Shown: piece by piece, positions 11,022 through 53,049 of the stretch
Position numbering within the stretch: the first letter of the stretch is position 1
Layout of the letters: each line of letters opens with the position of its first letter
From: Balneolaceae bacterium
GTDB lineage: Bacteria > Bacteroidota > Rhodothermia > Balneolales > Balneolaceae
Reading direction: 5' to 3'
NCBI GenBank assembly: GCA_020832285.1
Contig: JAFIFB010000023.1
Span: 62,001 to 126,000 of the forward strand
DNA: 64,000 nucleotides
Translations under genes and position numbers: made by a program
Notes under the pieces: generated by a model
Database searches by the model: none
What the model saw: the letters and a program-made list of their open reading frames with translations, nothing else
Told to the model about the DNA's origin: nothing

Positions 11022-11033
11022 CGGGCTTCTTTT

Positions 11034-11142
11034 TTCTCGCAGATGTACGCTGATGAATACGCAGATTAACGCTGATTTTTTGATATGACCTCACATCACT
11101 TCTGCGAACATCTGCGAATAACTCTGCGAAAATCTGCGAGAA
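11034..11142. repeat. Palindromic CTGCG array, left copy flanking the GxxExxY gene
   Basis: A 109-bp array bounded by an 11-bp inverted repeat (TTCTCGCAGAT at 11034-11044 and ATCTGCGAGAA at 11132-11142). The left half holds units in reverse orientation (CGCAGAT, CGCTGAT). The right half holds four TCTGCG units starting at 11101, 11111, 11123 and 11133, spaced 10-12 bp. The first 20 bp of the array beyond its opening TT recur as a direct copy in the array at 11622. Confidence 0.85.
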
Positions 11143-11223: not shown

Positions 11224-11601
11224 ATGCATGAAAATGAAATCTCCTATGACATCCGTGGAGCAGCTTTCAACGTTCATTCTGCATTGGGGCCAGGACTCCT
11301 TGAATCTGTTTATGAAGCTGCCCTGGCTTATGAACTCCAAAAAATGAACTATGATGTAAAAACTCAATTGGGTGTGCCAGCGGTGTATGAAGCAGTTAAA
11401 ATGGAACAAGGTTTCAGGATGGACCTTTTGGTAAATGATAAAGTAATAGTTGAGATAAAATCTGTTGAAATGTTAATGGACGTACATTACAAGCAACTAC
11501 TCACCTATTTAAAATTATCCGGAAAAAAACTTGGGCTGTTAATCAATTTCAATTCTGCAACGTTGAAAGGTTCGATGAAGCGGGTCGTTAATAATTTGTA
11601 G
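11224..11601 (+). CDS. GxxExxY family protein (PD-(D/E)xK nuclease-like fold)
   Basis: 125 residues, full length for the family. The name-giving motif is GLLESVY (GPGLLESVYEAAL, about residues 23-35). Further on, GFRMDLLVNDKVIVEIKSVE (about 63-82) gives the D...ExK arrangement of PD-(D/E)xK nucleases. The family is widespread in Bacteroidota and other phyla, and its function is unsettled. The gene stands alone between two palindromic CTGCG arrays at 11034-11142 and 11622-11708, is unrelated to the metabolic genes on either side, and is probably a guest. Whether it nicks or binds the arrays is inference. Confidence 0.9.
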   Translation: MHENEISYDIRGAAFNVHSALGPGLLESVYEAALAYELQKMNYDVKTQLGVPAVYEAVKMEQGFRMDLLVNDKVIVEIKSVEMLMDVHYKQLLTYLKLSGKKLGLLINFNSATLKGSMKRVVNNL

Positions 11602-11621: not shown

Positions 11622-11708
11622 TCTCGCAGATGTACGCTGATGTATTTTTAATCAGACCATAGACTAATCTGCGAAACTCTGCGCATAACTCTGCGATAAT
11701 CTGCGAGA
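11622..11708. repeat. Palindromic CTGCG array, right copy flanking the GxxExxY gene
   Basis: An 87-bp array bounded by TCTCGCAGAT (11622-11631) and ATCTGCGAGA (11699-11708), with TCTGCG-type units in its right half. Its left arm shares CTCGCAGATGTACGCTGATG exactly with the array at 11034 and in the same orientation. It ends 7 bp before the stop codon of the convergent SDR gene. Confidence 0.85.
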
Positions 11709-11715
11709 AAAACCC

Positions 11716-36477: not shown

Positions 36478-36845
36478 GAAAGTTTATTTGATCGGTTTGT
36501 CACCATCGCCAGCACTTTATAAGCAGAAGGCTATTCGTGTTGAAGATTTTCGTGTCTTTTTTTAGTTAGGATAGATTTTCTTTCAGATCGAGAACCAATC
36601 CTATTTTTATCAAAGAGTTACACTGATAATTCCGCTGAACCTTACAGACTTTCTGCATAAATCTGCTATTAACTCTGCGAGAATGTGACTCCGTCAGAAA
36701 CTCGCGCAGGGGATTGAATCCTGTCAAAGTGAGAATGGCTCTAACGGGGTCATTCCTTAATCGTTTTGGACAGTCTCCATACCTATCCACTCTGTCAAAA
36801 AACAAGTAAGCAAATTTAAGAAACAAATGCTTACTTACGATGATA
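36478..36845. other. Intergenic region with a decayed CTGCG array
   Basis: 368 bp with no gene. At about 36620-36682 an array like those at 11034 and 50761 is still recognisable: CACTGATAATTCCGCTGA, then CTGCATAAATCTGC and AACTCTGCGAGAA. It is degenerate and its left boundary is lost. Confidence 0.6.
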
Positions 36846-47939: not shown

Positions 47940-48308
47940 TTATGTTTCAGGTGCCCAGTAATCGCAATATCCGGCTGCAAATACGGGACCTTCAAAGAGC
48001 ACACATCCGCCACAATTCCCTTCTTCTCCCGGCGGAATATACAAACTGCAGTTATCACATCTGAATTCCGGATATGGAGTTTCATCGACATATCCATAAA
48101 CATCCCGTTTATCGATTTCACTTTGGCTTACATTTGATAGATCATCACAACTTCTTCCATAAGCAGCTTGCTCTTGCTCCCCTTCTTTTTGTGTTGAAGA
48201 ATCCTCTTTTCGCCCACATCCTCCGATGAACCCTGCAGCGATGATGACAGTTCCGTACTGAACGATATTTTTCATAAACTTTCGCCGCGAAAACTTGATA
48301 TCATCCAT
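47940..48308 (-). CDS. High-potential iron-sulfur protein (HiPIP), Tat-exported
   Basis: 122 residues with a twin-arginine signal (SRRKFMKN ... GFIGGC). The Cys31 in GGC may also act as a lipobox. The [4Fe-4S] ligands fit C-x2-C-x14-C-x12-C: Cys84, Cys87, Cys102 and Cys115, within RCDNCSLYIPPGEEG, GGCVLFEGPV and GYCDYWAPE. This matches HiPIP spacing. HiPIPs carry single electrons in the periplasm. It is 64 nt downstream of a PVC-type dehydrogenase that has no heme motif, so it may be that enzyme's electron acceptor (inference). Extra Cys54 and Cys99 are unexplained. Confidence 0.88.
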   Translation of the reverse strand: MDDIKFSRRKFMKNIVQYGTVIIAAGFIGGCGRKEDSSTQKEGEQEQAAYGRSCDDLSNVSQSEIDKRDVYGYVDETPYPEFRCDNCSLYIPPGEEGNCGGCVLFEGPVFAAGYCDYWAPET

Positions 48309-48372
48309 TTTTCATTCTTTTTTTATCCAGAATGTTTGTCATAATAATTGATCTGTGACGAACCTTCATTTT

Positions 48373-50610
48373 TTATTTAGAGTCGGAGAAAATTTCTCTC
48401 AAAAGTTCAATTTTCTCGTTGATATTCTCTGCAGATTCCAGTTCATTCACCTTCAAAAGGACTTCTTTCAGACCGGGATTTTCATCCTCATGCCTTTCCA
48501 GCCCATCCGTTAATCCATCCAGTCCACTCATTTGCCAGGCCTCATCGGGACCGAATTCCATTTGAATGGTATCAAGCAGAACATGAATCTCCTCTGACAT
48601 CGCGCGTGATCCAACTGCAAAAGTAAGATCTTCCAACAAAGACCTTTTCCACGAGGACATTTCATCCTGGAAAAAATCCCTGGTATGTAGATTCAGGAAC
48701 AATTCAATGGATGAACCGGATTCAGAGCTTAAGACGGCTGTACGAAACCAGGTATTGTGGCCATACTCCTCCACCACATACGCCAATGTTGATGTAACCT
48801 CATCGCCTGTAAATTCCCCGATGCTCAGAGTCGCCTGAAAAGCAACCTGTATCGATGGATCCGTTACTCCCTCAAGTAATTCGGAAAGGAGTCCGGGGTA
48901 TCGTTCTGCCAACAGCATCCCATGCTCACGAACACCGGGATGCTCATCTTCCATGGCCATTCTGACGATTTCTTCATTCAGAGAATCGAATCCCTCCAAT
49001 ACGTAAAGGGCATGGAGCCTTGTCCTGGGATCTTCATGGTTAGTCAAAAGAGCTGTGATATCAGGAATAACCGAATGATCCTGCCGTTCGATCAATAATC
49101 GCTGGGCTGTGAGCCTCCACCATTGCCCCGGATGTGACAACATCTCCACCCATTGATGCAAACTCATATCCTTCAGGTTTGCCGGGCTGTTTTCATCCAG
49201 ACGTTCATTTTTTGGCACAATCCTGTAAATGCGGCCGTGTTCAAGTCCTTGGGTGAAATCCAGGTCCGGATTCTCTTTCAGGTCTTCGGGAATAGCGATC
49301 GGATGCTCGGTATGCTGCCTGTACATGTCAACAACATACAAATAGCCATCCGGCCCCACTGTAAATGTCGTGGGCCGAAACCACGGATCGGTTGAAGCCA
49401 GGAATTCCCGGTCTTTTTCCGACTCATGACGGCTTGCAATATAGACGGGACTCTCTTCACTTTTTGTTACCACATCCCTGTGCACCAGATTCCCGGCATG
49501 CTCACCTGTAAAAATATTTCCGTAATATTCATCCGGGAAAGACTGGCCGGTGTAAATTGTTCCGCCTGTTGCACCTGTAAATTCACCTTTCACATCCTCT
49601 GTTCTGTCAAGTCCTGCCTCATCATACTGTGCCTGCCGGCGGGCGCTCCGTTCAGCACGCCAGTAGGGAGCGGGGGTCAGCTGAAACATGGTCAGCCCAT
49701 GATCATTGATGTTTTTTATGGCATTTTGCGATCGCCCGTGAGAATGACGCCTGAGATATCTGTCCGGAATCACGGCCTGACGAATATGCGGAACAGCAGC
49801 TGTCATAAACCGGTGGCCCCAATCATTGATCGTACGGCCAACCCTTCCCACACCCGTTGCCCTTTCGAACTCACCGGTATCCATCCGGAACCGAAAATCA
49901 GCTCCGTTTATAGAAACAGGCGGGGCTTCAGGGTCTCTGCCTGAGGTCACCTCGCCGGGGCGGCCGTCATTGGATGCATAGATCCAGTTATCTACACTGT
50001 ACCGAAGGCTTGTTATCTGGGCCTGAACATTGGAAGTGGAAAAACCTGTAAACAGTACTTCGCGGGTGTCTGCTTTCAGGTCACCCGTGGTATCTTTCAG
50101 GTAGAGGATGTCTGGAGCCGAGGTGATAATCAGCCCACCGTCCCAGGGAAGAATACTTGTCCCCTCCCTGATTCCTTCTGCAAATACTGCTGAACTGTCT
50201 ATCCTGCCATCACCAGTGGAATCGATAAGACGCCGGATACGGCCGCCGGATTCTAAAACATCCGGATGGTACGGGTACTGGCTCACTTCACCCACCACAT
50301 CTTCATCACTTAAATCCCTGTCTTTAAACGGGTAATCGGACATCTCCATCACATAAATATTCCCATTTTCGTCAAACACCATCTCTACCGGATCGACCAC
50401 ATGGGGTTCAGATGCAAATATTTCTATCTCAAAATCTTCATGCAGGTGAAAAGACTGAAGGGCCTCTTCTACGGTGAGTGGATCCGGATAACGGTTTTCG
50501 GAACAAGAGAACATCATTATTAGAGAGATGCACCCTGTAATGAGGAGGAGTCCGGCTGATGGAAACCCGCCAGATCGTGTTGTCACAACAATGAATTTCA
50601 GGTTCTTCAA
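48373..50610 (-). CDS. PVC-type membrane-bound dehydrogenase-like lipoprotein with HEAT-like repeats
   Basis: 745 residues; lipobox MFSC. The N-terminal about 440 residues match the PVC-type dehydrogenase propeller (VDPVEMVFDENGNIYVMEMSDYP, GGRIRRLIDSTGDGRIDSS, INDWGHRFMTAAVPHIRQ, FRPTTFTVGPDGYLYVVDMYRQ, HGRIYRIVP). The C-terminal part consists of helical HEAT-like repeats (TRLHALYVLEGFDSL, PGVREHGMLLAERYPG). Many relatives carry a C-terminal CxxCH heme domain; none is present here. A HiPIP gene follows at once. It probably oxidises a sugar or alcohol outside the cytoplasm. Catalytic details of this family are little studied. Confidence 0.82.
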   Translation of the reverse strand: MKNLKFIVVTTRSGGFPSAGLLLITGCISLIMMFSCSENRYPDPLTVEEALQSFHLHEDFEIEIFASEPHVVDPVEMVFDENGNIYVMEMSDYPFKDRDLSDEDVVGEVSQYPYHPDVLESGGRIRRLIDSTGDGRIDSSAVFAEGIREGTSILPWDGGLIITSAPDILYLKDTTGDLKADTREVLFTGFSTSNVQAQITSLRYSVDNWIYASNDGRPGEVTSGRDPEAPPVSINGADFRFRMDTGEFERATGVGRVGRTINDWGHRFMTAAVPHIRQAVIPDRYLRRHSHGRSQNAIKNINDHGLTMFQLTPAPYWRAERSARRQAQYDEAGLDRTEDVKGEFTGATGGTIYTGQSFPDEYYGNIFTGEHAGNLVHRDVVTKSEESPVYIASRHESEKDREFLASTDPWFRPTTFTVGPDGYLYVVDMYRQHTEHPIAIPEDLKENPDLDFTQGLEHGRIYRIVPKNERLDENSPANLKDMSLHQWVEMLSHPGQWWRLTAQRLLIERQDHSVIPDITALLTNHEDPRTRLHALYVLEGFDSLNEEIVRMAMEDEHPGVREHGMLLAERYPGLLSELLEGVTDPSIQVAFQATLSIGEFTGDEVTSTLAYVVEEYGHNTWFRTAVLSSESGSSIELFLNLHTRDFFQDEMSSWKRSLLEDLTFAVGSRAMSEEIHVLLDTIQMEFGPDEAWQMSGLDGLTDGLERHEDENPGLKEVLLKVNELESAENINEKIELLREIFSDSK

Positions 50611-50760
50611 ATACGTAAAATGCTTTGCAGCAGAAATTTTTTTAAAGTATAATCATTTTGAGAAACGAACTTACGATATTCGCGTAAATTAATCTCTCAA
50701 CTTTCGCACATGTTATATATAAAGATTCTTTCCATAAATAAACGATGGTGCCAGATCTGT

Positions 50761-50849
50761 TTTCTCGCTGATTTTCGCAGATGAATTCGCGGTTTTTCGC
50801 TGAAATTCTGCGGGAATCTGCGTCAAACTCAGCGAAACTCTGCGAGAAA
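50761..50849. repeat. Solo palindromic CTGCG array
   Basis: 89 bp bounded by TTTCTCGC and GCGAGAAA. The left half has reversed units (CGCTGA, CGCAGAT, CGCTGAA) and the right half forward units (TCTGCGGGA, TCTGCGTCA, CTCTGCGAGAA). It has the same plan as the arrays at 11034 and 11622 but no GxxExxY gene. It lies in the gap between an amidohydrolase 3' end and the PVC-dehydrogenase 5' end. Confidence 0.8.
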
Positions 50850-50890
50850 CCTTAAGTGCGAAAGATGAGTTAATCAGAATAACTGTTCAG

Positions 50891-51913
50891 CTATAAACCG
50901 AACAGTTTTTTAGAATTTTCATAAAGTAATTTTCTTTCCACATGTTTACTCGCAGATAGTCTGCGAATCGCCTTGATCGTCTGAGCTCCCTGGCAATCCG
51001 GTCCGTGGCCATAAGGATCGGCACAATCGCTGCCATAAAGGAGCTTGTCCTGATGACGTTCCAGGAAACCACGGGCATGATCTTCATCACGAGTCATGGA
51101 ATTCAGGCCGGAACCGGCGGAAAGATCTCCGTACATATTCGGATAATCACTTAAAAGCCGATCGGTTAATCCGCCTCTTGTCACTTTTCCACTTGGAAAC
51201 ATAATACTCTGGTCTTCATGATTCTTGTCAATATTCGCCCACCACGTCTGTGCATGTCCGATAAAATTCACATCCGGATACTTCTCCAGCATTTTGTGGA
51301 AACGCTCAAATCCAAAATTGTATCTCTCATACTGCCAGTGCATCAAGACCGGAACATCGTATTCACCGGCAAGTTCATAAATTTTTTGCATCTCAGGAGA
51401 ATCACAATCCACCCCGAATTTTGATTCTCCGATCATCTGGCCGCCCAGTTTGAGATACTTTTCTATCTCTTCAATGGCCTCAGGAATGTCAGGTACTTCG
51501 TTTGCAGCAAACAGAAACTCATCAGGATACTTTAGAGCAAATTCATAACATGATTCATTGCCACCTGCCTGCACGCCTCCCAGTCCGTTTGAAGCACCGC
51601 CATGAGTGGACGCTGTTTGAACCGACCGGCCGGCAGGAAGGAGAATTGTGGTGGTAATACCCATTGCCCGCTGGTGAGCGAGTAACTCCTCGTAGCTCCG
51701 GCCATGATAATTCGTATGCTGATGAATATCGATTATAGGATCGGCATCTCCTGCTGCAATCTCGTCGGACTGCTGTGTTTCCCCATCCTCTTCCCGACTG
51801 CAGCCGGAAAACAGCGACGAAGCAGTACCCAGAGAGAAAACCGTACCCAGTCCGGCAAGAGTGTTTCGTTTTATAAACTCGCGTCTGGTACAGTTTTTAT
51901 TCTTTTTATTCAT
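50891..51913 (-). CDS. Tat-exported amidohydrolase-2 family metal-dependent hydrolase
   Basis: 340 residues with a twin-arginine signal (CTRREFIKRNTLAGLG) ending near FSGC, possibly a Tat lipoprotein. TIM-barrel metal motifs are present: DIHQHT (His64, His66), VLMHWQYE, NFIGHAQTWW and LLYGSDCADPYG (a late Asp ligand). Family members hydrolyse lactones or decarboxylate aromatic and sugar acids; the exact type cannot be set. It lies 26 nt downstream of an alpha/beta-hydrolase, so the pair is probably co-transcribed. A periplasmic lactonase acting on a dehydrogenase product is one option. Confidence 0.85.
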   Translation of the reverse strand: MNKKNKNCTRREFIKRNTLAGLGTVFSLGTASSLFSGCSREEDGETQQSDEIAAGDADPIIDIHQHTNYHGRSYEELLAHQRAMGITTTILLPAGRSVQTASTHGGASNGLGGVQAGGNESCYEFALKYPDEFLFAANEVPDIPEAIEEIEKYLKLGGQMIGESKFGVDCDSPEMQKIYELAGEYDVPVLMHWQYERYNFGFERFHKMLEKYPDVNFIGHAQTWWANIDKNHEDQSIMFPSGKVTRGGLTDRLLSDYPNMYGDLSAGSGLNSMTRDEDHARGFLERHQDKLLYGSDCADPYGHGPDCQGAQTIKAIRRLSASKHVERKLLYENSKKLFGL

Positions 51914-51939
51914 TCGTTTGGCTGAAATTACAGTACAAA

Positions 51940-53049
51940 TTACTCAATCACATGATTCGATGGTACGTGATTGAACGTTTGATCGATAAATCGGTATGCT
52001 TCTTTTCTGGTCTGAACAGGAAAATCGTGCTCTGCTTCAGGATATCGAACCTGTAAGTTTTCTTCTGCACCTAAAAACCGGTAAGCCTCTGAAGCCAGTG
52101 ACACACCAAGCCTGACGCCTTCCACATCAAAATTACTGTCATTAAGCGGCGAGTTGGAGAAGAACGGTCGCGGAGCAAGGACAGCAATTACCTCATGAAA
52201 ATCAAATGGCAAAAAATCGCCGTCCAGGTTATATTTTTCCCGAATCAGAGGCATGTATCTGTCTTGTGCCCAGGGACCTAAACGACCGCCAAACCTTTCT
52301 TCTGCAACCTCCCCGATATCGTAATAATCCATTTGTGTCCATCCGCAGCTCGACACAATCACCTTTAAACGTGTATCAAAAGCGGCTGCAAACATCGCAT
52401 TGTGTCCGCCAAGTGAATGGCCCAAGACCCCGATACGTTCTGGATCAACATCTTCCCTGGACAGCAAAAGATCCACGCTGCGCATATGATTGAATATTCC
52501 TTTCATCGTACCCGATTCATACCGGTCATTTTGAAAATCATGATCTATCAGATCACCCATACTTGGATAATCAGGTGCTATAACAATGTACCCCCTTTCA
52601 GCTAACTCTTTTGCATGTGCCCTGTTTGGCAGAGGGCTTTCACCATCCACAAGGCGTTTTCCGCCATCCCCTGTCCCGTGCAAAACCAGCATGGCTGGCA
52701 GTTTTCCGGTAACACCTTTACGAAATGGAATATAGAGATAGGCGGGCACCACTTCACCTTCTGCCGCAGTAAAACGGATTGTCAGTCGATTGTAACGATC
52801 TGTTTTTAATGTATCGGTGATTTGCAGGTCAAGTGCCGGAAGGCTTGAACGATCAGGAAGCTTGCCCATAACATCCTCCATACCTTCCAGGATTTGCCAG
52901 CGTTTTTGTTCCCAATCTGCTATGTTAGTCACTGTACGAATCTCTCCTGATGCATCTTTGAATTGCATAAGCTCAGGAGGATCAGTTAAAAATCCGAAAC
53001 CTGTAATGGTTATAAGAAGAGGTAAGAAATAACAGAATATATTATGCAT
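51940..53049 (-). CDS. Secreted alpha/beta-hydrolase (dienelactone hydrolase / acetyl-xylan-esterase-like)
   Basis: 369 residues with a signal peptide (MHNIFCYFLPLLITITGFGF). The nucleophile elbow is GHSLGG with Ser212. The strand before the oxyanion hole is AMLVLHGTGDGG, and a late His lies in EAEHDFPVQ. An N-terminal beta-rich cap (about 60-110) precedes the core, as in family members that de-esterify carbohydrates. It should hydrolyse an ester or lactone in the periplasm. It is followed by the amidohydrolase. No acetyl-xylan or other polysaccharide enzyme is nearby, so the substrate is open. Confidence 0.85.
   Translation of the reverse strand: MHNIFCYFLPLLITITGFGFLTDPPELMQFKDASGEIRTVTNIADWEQKRWQILEGMEDVMGKLPDRSSLPALDLQITDTLKTDRYNRLTIRFTAAEGEVVPAYLYIPFRKGVTGKLPAMLVLHGTGDGGKRLVDGESPLPNRAHAKELAERGYIVIAPDYPSMGDLIDHDFQNDRYESGTMKGIFNHMRSVDLLLSREDVDPERIGVLGHSLGGHNAMFAAAFDTRLKVIVSSCGWTQMDYYDIGEVAEERFGGRLGPWAQDRYMPLIREKYNLDGDFLPFDFHEVIAVLAPRPFFSNSPLNDSNFDVEGVRLGVSLASEAYRFLGAEENLQVRYPEAEHDFPVQTRKEAYRFIDQTFNHVPSNHVIE

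Follow-up and report, generated by a model that had tools for sequence, protein, structure and literature searches.

The locus studied here raises the question of why a short palindromic array of CTGCG-type units, of the kind that flanks a GxxExxY nuclease-like gene, should stand in an intergenic gap with no gene of its own. The array lies in a 64,000-nucleotide stretch of a Balneolaceae genome (the window, G000:C70:62001-126000; the source genome, G000, comprises 5.33 Mb in 130 contigs). A first-pass annotation had placed it at 50761-50849 and had described it as a solo, bounded, two-armed array in a short gap, and as a non-autonomous, MITE- or REP-like form of the 11-kb GxxExxY element. The gap runs from an ORF start at 50610 (TTG, minus strand) to the stop of an amidohydrolase gene at 50891, and no gene was found between these two positions, as had been described. 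Rfam gave no match overlapping the array, and two sub-threshold matches elsewhere in 48000-53000. A short CGCAGATAGTCTGCG palindrome at 50948-50971, within the amidohydrolase coding sequence, is weakly array-like (7-8 bits).

The solo array is real and sharply bounded. It consists of eight 6-base units, four per arm, with a 3-base tip separating the arms (Table 1). In order, the left units are CGCTGA, CGCAGA, CGCGGT (at 50788) and CGCTGA, and the right units are TCTGCG, TCTGCG, TCAGCG and TCTGCG. The unit grid placed at 50766 scored 47 of 48, as compared with 28-32 for 60 dinucleotide shuffles of the whole window (best 32), bearing out the coordinates. A profile built from 13 arrays, all of other genomes, recovered the solo array with an E value of 5.7e-23 and the two arrays beside the window's GxxExxY gene with E values of 4.4e-19 and 1.2e-14; it also recovered the decayed copy at 36.6 kb, which the first-pass annotation of the solo array had not listed. 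The two-armed plan also held up, the arms having the same 10-12-10 spacing as in the arrays beside GxxExxY.

Table 1 Features of the window bearing on the origin of the solo array (positions in window coordinates)
Feature	Position	Strand	Remarks
Two-armed array upstream of GxxExxY	11033..11142	.	10-12-10 arms, longer tip
GxxExxY gene (TIGR04256; Pfam PDDEXK_3), proposed trans-acting partner	11224..11601	+	
Array downstream of GxxExxY	11622..11710	.	left arm decayed, right arm 10-12-10
Decayed array	36608..36685	.	E 1.7e-8 with the other-genomes profile
Terminal inverted repeat of IS4-type element/MITE (CGTTTTGGACAG)	36762..36773	-	beside the decayed array
PVC-type heme-binding CxxCH protein (TIGR02604), flanking gene	48373..50610	-	
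Solo two-armed array	50761..50849	.	4+4 units, 89 bp; blastn matches in other genomes stop at or near 50760-50849
Solo-array left arm	50766..50803	+	CGCNGA-type units at 50766, 50776, 50788, 50798; spacing 10-12-10
Solo-array right arm	50807..50844	+	TCNGCG units at 50807, 50817, 50829, 50839; spacing 10-12-10
Amidohydrolase (PF04909), flanking gene	50891..51913	-	stop codon 42 bp from the solo array

A 1.1-kb query around the solo array was searched against 40 relatives; the array alone was matched, at many places in 15 genomes, and the flanks never. The best blastn matches ended at, or a few bases from, the array edges, and the flanks had no match elsewhere in their own genome. What recurs amid unrelated flanks is a unit of 86-90 bp, with full arrays clustering at 88-89 bp. 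The spacing among distinct arms was 10-12-10 in 78, 10-11-10 in 19 and 10-13-10 in 7, with other spacings occurring 0-2 times, a count with some bias, since similarity to the solo array was what led to many of the loci. The resulting period of about 10.7 bp places the units on the same face of the DNA helix. One-armed half arrays are common, and most copies are gene-less. In the 16 arrays aligned, and in the flanks displayed, the edges (TTTCTCGC...GCGAGAAA) carried no GTAG or CGTC tag.

Counted genome by genome, such arrays proved common in the genus, with matches to the array model R1 in 19 of 28 genomes and none in the other 9; some of the assemblies sampled are incomplete and MAG-like. The counts are relative, not absolute: scoring covered 150 of the 473-1909 preliminary candidates in each genome, and an array is usually matched, and counted, on both strands. 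The 62 R1 matches in G000 therefore correspond to about 30 arrays and half arrays, two of which flank the window's GxxExxY gene. A subfamily of about 105-107 bp, whose tip was 20-22 bases long in those measured, was seen in G008 (L384-L386, L398, L399), a genome in which no cognate GxxExxY gene was found. A second, larger dispersed repeat with a CTGCG array inside was noted by eye in G000 and, reversed, in G008 (L035 and L047).

The GxxExxY gene of the window is one of five in G000, each flanked by arrays of a different motif. The four others are L001, L002, L004 and L005; genus-wide, arrays of this kind have a period of 8-10 bases. To relate motif to protein, 69 of 79 listed GxxExxY places were taken, of which 59 were scored and 10 were dropped for having no tblastn match to the window's protein. 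Arms of CGCNGA units spaced 10-12-10 (with a score of at least 23/24 on one side or both) were present at 9/9 loci whose protein is at least 63% identical to that of the window, as compared with 1/50 (L348) at 54% identity or less. The motif thus follows one clade of GxxExxY proteins, and the description of the solo array as a gene-less form of the arrays at 11 kb is supported. Over 57 loci, array-motif similarity tracked GxxExxY protein identity with a Mantel r of 0.47, or 0.44 without this clade, and 0/2000 permutations gave a value as high; orthologous loci were kept and shared descent was not removed, and the match could reflect joint inheritance of gene and arrays without recognition.

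Array matches were commoner in genomes with the cognate gene (9 versus 19 genomes, P = 0.0005; 7 versus 12 at completeness of at least 90%, P = 0.004), and the cognate gene was not found in G009, G024 and G008 despite 65, 36 and 34 R1 matches, respectively. The solo-array arms are also common to loci in which the gene stands between a left and a right arm (L096, L099, L113), that is, the solo plan plus a gene. There was little sign that other motif families of G000 spread gene-less copies: the CTCTGTG pattern had six matches in that genome, four at its gene and two elsewhere that did not look two-armed in the stretch inspected, and the AATCCTG pattern had no match away from its gene.

The nuclease core appears intact, as D67, E77-x-K79, Q91 and H18 vary little or not at all among 46 GxxExxY proteins. 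The AF2 model of the GxxExxY protein has a pLDDT of 93.7. Its best fold match was SSO0001 (Z 9.8), a Cas4 protein, followed by restriction-type folds, Hjc (7.5) and others; this ranking covers the families shown by VIA-align, and little weight can be placed on intermediate Z values, those under about 8. Lambda-type exonucleases were present in the Foldseek list for the same model. The likeness to PD-(D/E)XK nucleases of the Cas4, lambda exonuclease and Hjc type is one of predicted fold, and no sequence link from the protein to the PDB was found.

The explanation that fits best, and that in our judgement is about evenly poised between right and wrong, is that the solo array is a REPIN-like, non-autonomous, gene-less partner of the GxxExxY nuclease, now mostly a relic. 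Judged from sequence, two inverted arms of about 43 bp, each a helically phased row of four putative binding units, would have been copied to this site in the past without the GxxExxY gene. By their association with the gene, the arms may represent the recognition ends of a GxxExxY element. The GxxExxY protein, a predicted Cas4/lambda-exonuclease/resolvase-like PD-(D/E)XK nuclease, would recognise its own motif in trans, as suggested by the matching of motif to clade. Recognition may proceed through a cruciform or single-stranded hairpin of the two arms in which an inner mismatch is kept, followed by nicking or excision and then by repair or re-insertion, a sequence of steps that would spread the unit into gaps just past stop codons.

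The hairpin was assessed by computed folding. As single-stranded DNA, the solo array gave z values of -5.1 and -4.4 on its two strands, with 0/200 shuffles as stable, and all eight single-stranded DNA folds computed (both strands of the solo array and six other arrays) had z values of -4.1 to -7.1. Folding of a 131-nt stretch with RNA parameters showed a weak excess (z -1.8 and -1.6). Across 35 arrays, the variable base of paired units was complementary in 43 of 102 cells, against an expected fraction of 0.60, with 0/4000 permutations as low, ruling out a hairpin held by compensatory changes. The variants of the inner paired units are mutually exclusive (L2 x R3, p = 1.4e-4; L3 x R2, p = 5.5e-4). 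Complementarity below chance and the exclusion of inner variants indicate that the stem keeps mismatches, a pattern that fits either a recognised imperfect hairpin or selection against perfectly palindromic arrays. The arrays might also have had a hidden polarity, an idea that was dropped after an independent spacer test (16 versus 11, P = 0.44).

For five array sites of other genomes, the array was absent from all 34 orthologous sites at which both flanks could be identified (11, 8, 2, 7 and 6 sites, respectively; one step of this survey scored 10 candidates per genome). Conservation of the array at the same position in distant relatives, the outcome that would have refuted the first-pass reading, was not seen for the solo array: none of 80 loci with a relative of the flanking amidohydrolase, all of them, to judge by their titles, from beyond the genus, carried an array. 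At nine of these loci (L143, L151, L163, L165, L166, L173, L176, L177, L191), a CxxCH gene adjoins the amidohydrolase gene on the same strand after 26-114 bp, with no array; L152 has a tenth such neighbour, a weak 26% match. A conserved regulatory site at the amidohydrolase/CxxCH junction was thereby ruled out. Within the genus, an empty-site comparison at the solo array itself is precluded because its flanking DNA is unmatched and the other 27 genomes offer no close amidohydrolase relative, only matches of 26-46% identity. Two array positions are common to species, one with a full array in G009 and a half array in G019 and G023 (L246, L234, L221) and one shared by G023 and G009 (L222, L250), which tells against a simple account by insertion and indicates that insertions can be old and persistent. 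Taken from the sequences, dispersal together with absence at orthologous sites points to a spread of naked arrays.

In one competing explanation, the array arrived inside an IS4-type MITE whose ends have since decayed, the array itself being immobile. In G000, near-identical MITEs measuring 242 bp between the outer bases of their terminal inverted repeats (TIRs) hold such an array inside, and their ends match those of an IS4-type element. An autonomous IS4 family element with a transposase, CTGTCCAAAACG ends and a AAGTTTTTT direct repeat beside it is present at G000:C23:38435-39793 (L066, L082) and probably gave rise to the array-carrying MITEs. Arrays in G013 and G007 (L045, L059) likewise have similar TIRs on their flanks. 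The MITE copies alone reach 0.96-0.99 identity among arrays; the closest pair that is neither MITE-borne nor in tandem at one gene is 0.86 identical, and the nearest relative of the solo array 0.82, so that no near-identical naked copies were found. Nor was there a target-site duplication at the 35 arrays, with a mean abutting repeat of 0.71 nt versus 0.89 nt after permutation, although old insertions could have lost one. Recent spread is therefore evident for the MITE only, and the naked copies in the sampled genomes look old, the sole recent spread visible being as a passenger in the IS4-type MITE. To our knowledge, GxxExxY is not known to transpose.

Despite these points in its favour, we consider an origin of the solo array as a MITE relic unlikely. 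No TIR with three or fewer mismatches lies within about 250 bp of it, although the same was true of 174 of 300 random windows, and its flanks, as noted, are unmatched in the genome. Arrays occur on both sides of GxxExxY genes, and matches in relatives stop at the array edge and not at MITE ends. The solo array resembles the IS4-type MITE in being short and gene-less with inverted ends, and differs from it in having neither CTGTCCAAAACG ends nor a target-site duplication. The earlier interpretation is thus supported in part: the array is a gene-less form of those beside GxxExxY, whereas the strict sense of MITE is not supported, since the naked array has neither a target-site duplication nor near-identical sister copies. 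The decayed CTGCG array of the window, with one IS4-type terminal repeat beside it (36608-36773), appears to be an old array-bearing MITE, a point in favour of the relic explanation. The array-carrying MITEs also break the G000 assembly at many contig ends.

A second competing explanation is that the array serves the host, as a helix-phased binding site or post-stop hairpin acting on supercoiling, mRNA 3' ends or a domain boundary. Such roles have been proposed for REP elements (PMC3733652), and the placement of the units on one helix face would suit them, as would the retention of the 88-89 bp length at a median identity among arrays of 0.68. Arrays are also intergenic: of 35 non-redundant two-armed arrays, with ORFs taken from a simple caller, 18 lie between same-strand genes, 5 within a divergent pair and 4 within a convergent pair, and 8 have no pair of called neighbours, so that 18 of the 27 with both neighbours called are in the same-strand arrangement. 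A host function nevertheless appears improbable given the absence of the array from every one of the 34 orthologous gaps and 80 amidohydrolase loci and the 9 of 28 genomes that do without arrays. No intrinsic terminator was found at the solo array in a scan of 50500-51000, where no T run follows the stem; a separate terminator-like hairpin, the sole one in the vicinity, occupies 50881-50907 at the 3' terminus of the amidohydrolase gene, on the side that faces the array.

The solo array might instead have formed in place, from a full GxxExxY element that lost its gene and left arm against arm. The arm-gene-arm loci described above are elements of the required form, and the position with a full array in G009 and half arrays in G019 and G023 shows different states at one site. 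We regard this origin as quite improbable. At none of the 34 orthologous sites did one genome carry the gene where another carried a solo array, and the tip is too regular for random deletions, with 14 of 35 arrays having 3 bases there and 22 having 2-9. Mobilisation of a REPIN by an ordinary RAYT/IS200-type Y1 transposase is very unlikely: Y1_Tnp genes occur in 25/28 genomes, and one in G000 has a half array about 360 bp away, but arms were present at none of the six top Y1 loci (of about 120 places), the G000 neighbour has, by eye, hairpins of its own beside the gene, and the array-free genomes G018, G015 and G012 have 4-5 Y1 genes.

The REPIN-like partnership with GxxExxY, the explanation we prefer, has its closest parallel in the REPIN/RAYT system (RAYT, REP-associated tyrosine transposase). 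In one report (PMC3116915), the REPIN, an inverted-repeat doublet forming a hairpin, is the replicative unit and single repeats are apparent remnants, while a different repeat group lies beside each cognate gene and repeats and enzymes co-diversify. The arrays studied here are similar, being hairpin doublets of 4+4 units with single-arm remnants, a distinct motif beside each GxxExxY gene and a motif that varies along with the protein. They differ in that the consistent gene neighbour is PD-(D/E)XK nuclease-like (PDDEXK_3) and not a Y1/HUH enzyme, in that each arm contains four phased 6-base units where a REPIN has one palindrome of about 20-40 bp, and in lacking the GTAG/CGTC tag and numbering tens of copies, not hundreds. 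The enzyme class and the missing tags keep the array out of the REPINs proper, and it is accordingly classed as a variant of REPIN-like working whose partner is of the PD-(D/E)XK type.

More tentatively, and with the doubts outweighing our confidence, we propose that GxxExxY constitutes a second, unrelated class of REPIN-mobilising enzymes, in which a Cas4-like PD-(D/E)XK nuclease would read helically phased 6-base units presented in a cruciform or a single-stranded hairpin, each clade maintaining and spreading its own array family, gene-less copies included. GxxExxY is a curated family that is functionally unexplained; were the array its substrate, the family would gain a testable role and bacteria a REPIN-like system with another nuclease fold at its base. 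The 10-12-10 spacing and the match of clade to motif provide concrete predictions for binding and cutting assays. Among open-licence papers, none on GxxExxY arrays was found.

A further parallel is offered by the intervening sequences (IVS) of 23S rRNA, in which a small S23 four-helix-bundle gene lies between inverted-repeat arms; these are called selfish and their mobility unknown (PMC4990558). An IVS lies within 23S rRNA, whereas the arrays studied here lie between protein genes and the associated gene encodes a nuclease-like protein. The likeness is that one orthologous gap in our survey is filled by a four-helix-bundle gene between arrays of its own. This is the gap of the G019 array L236, which in other species contains a gene between GTCTTGAGTC-motif arrays (L288, L292-L296); the gene in L292 encodes a four-helix-bundle protein (TIGR02436), and the other five look alike by eye. 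At three further loci of the same gap the arrays are of the CCCCTCCTT type; L289 has a DUF559-like gene between them, whereas L290 and L291 seem to have none. The CCCCTCCTT-type arrays apparently represent a third array-plus-small-gene family with solo forms.
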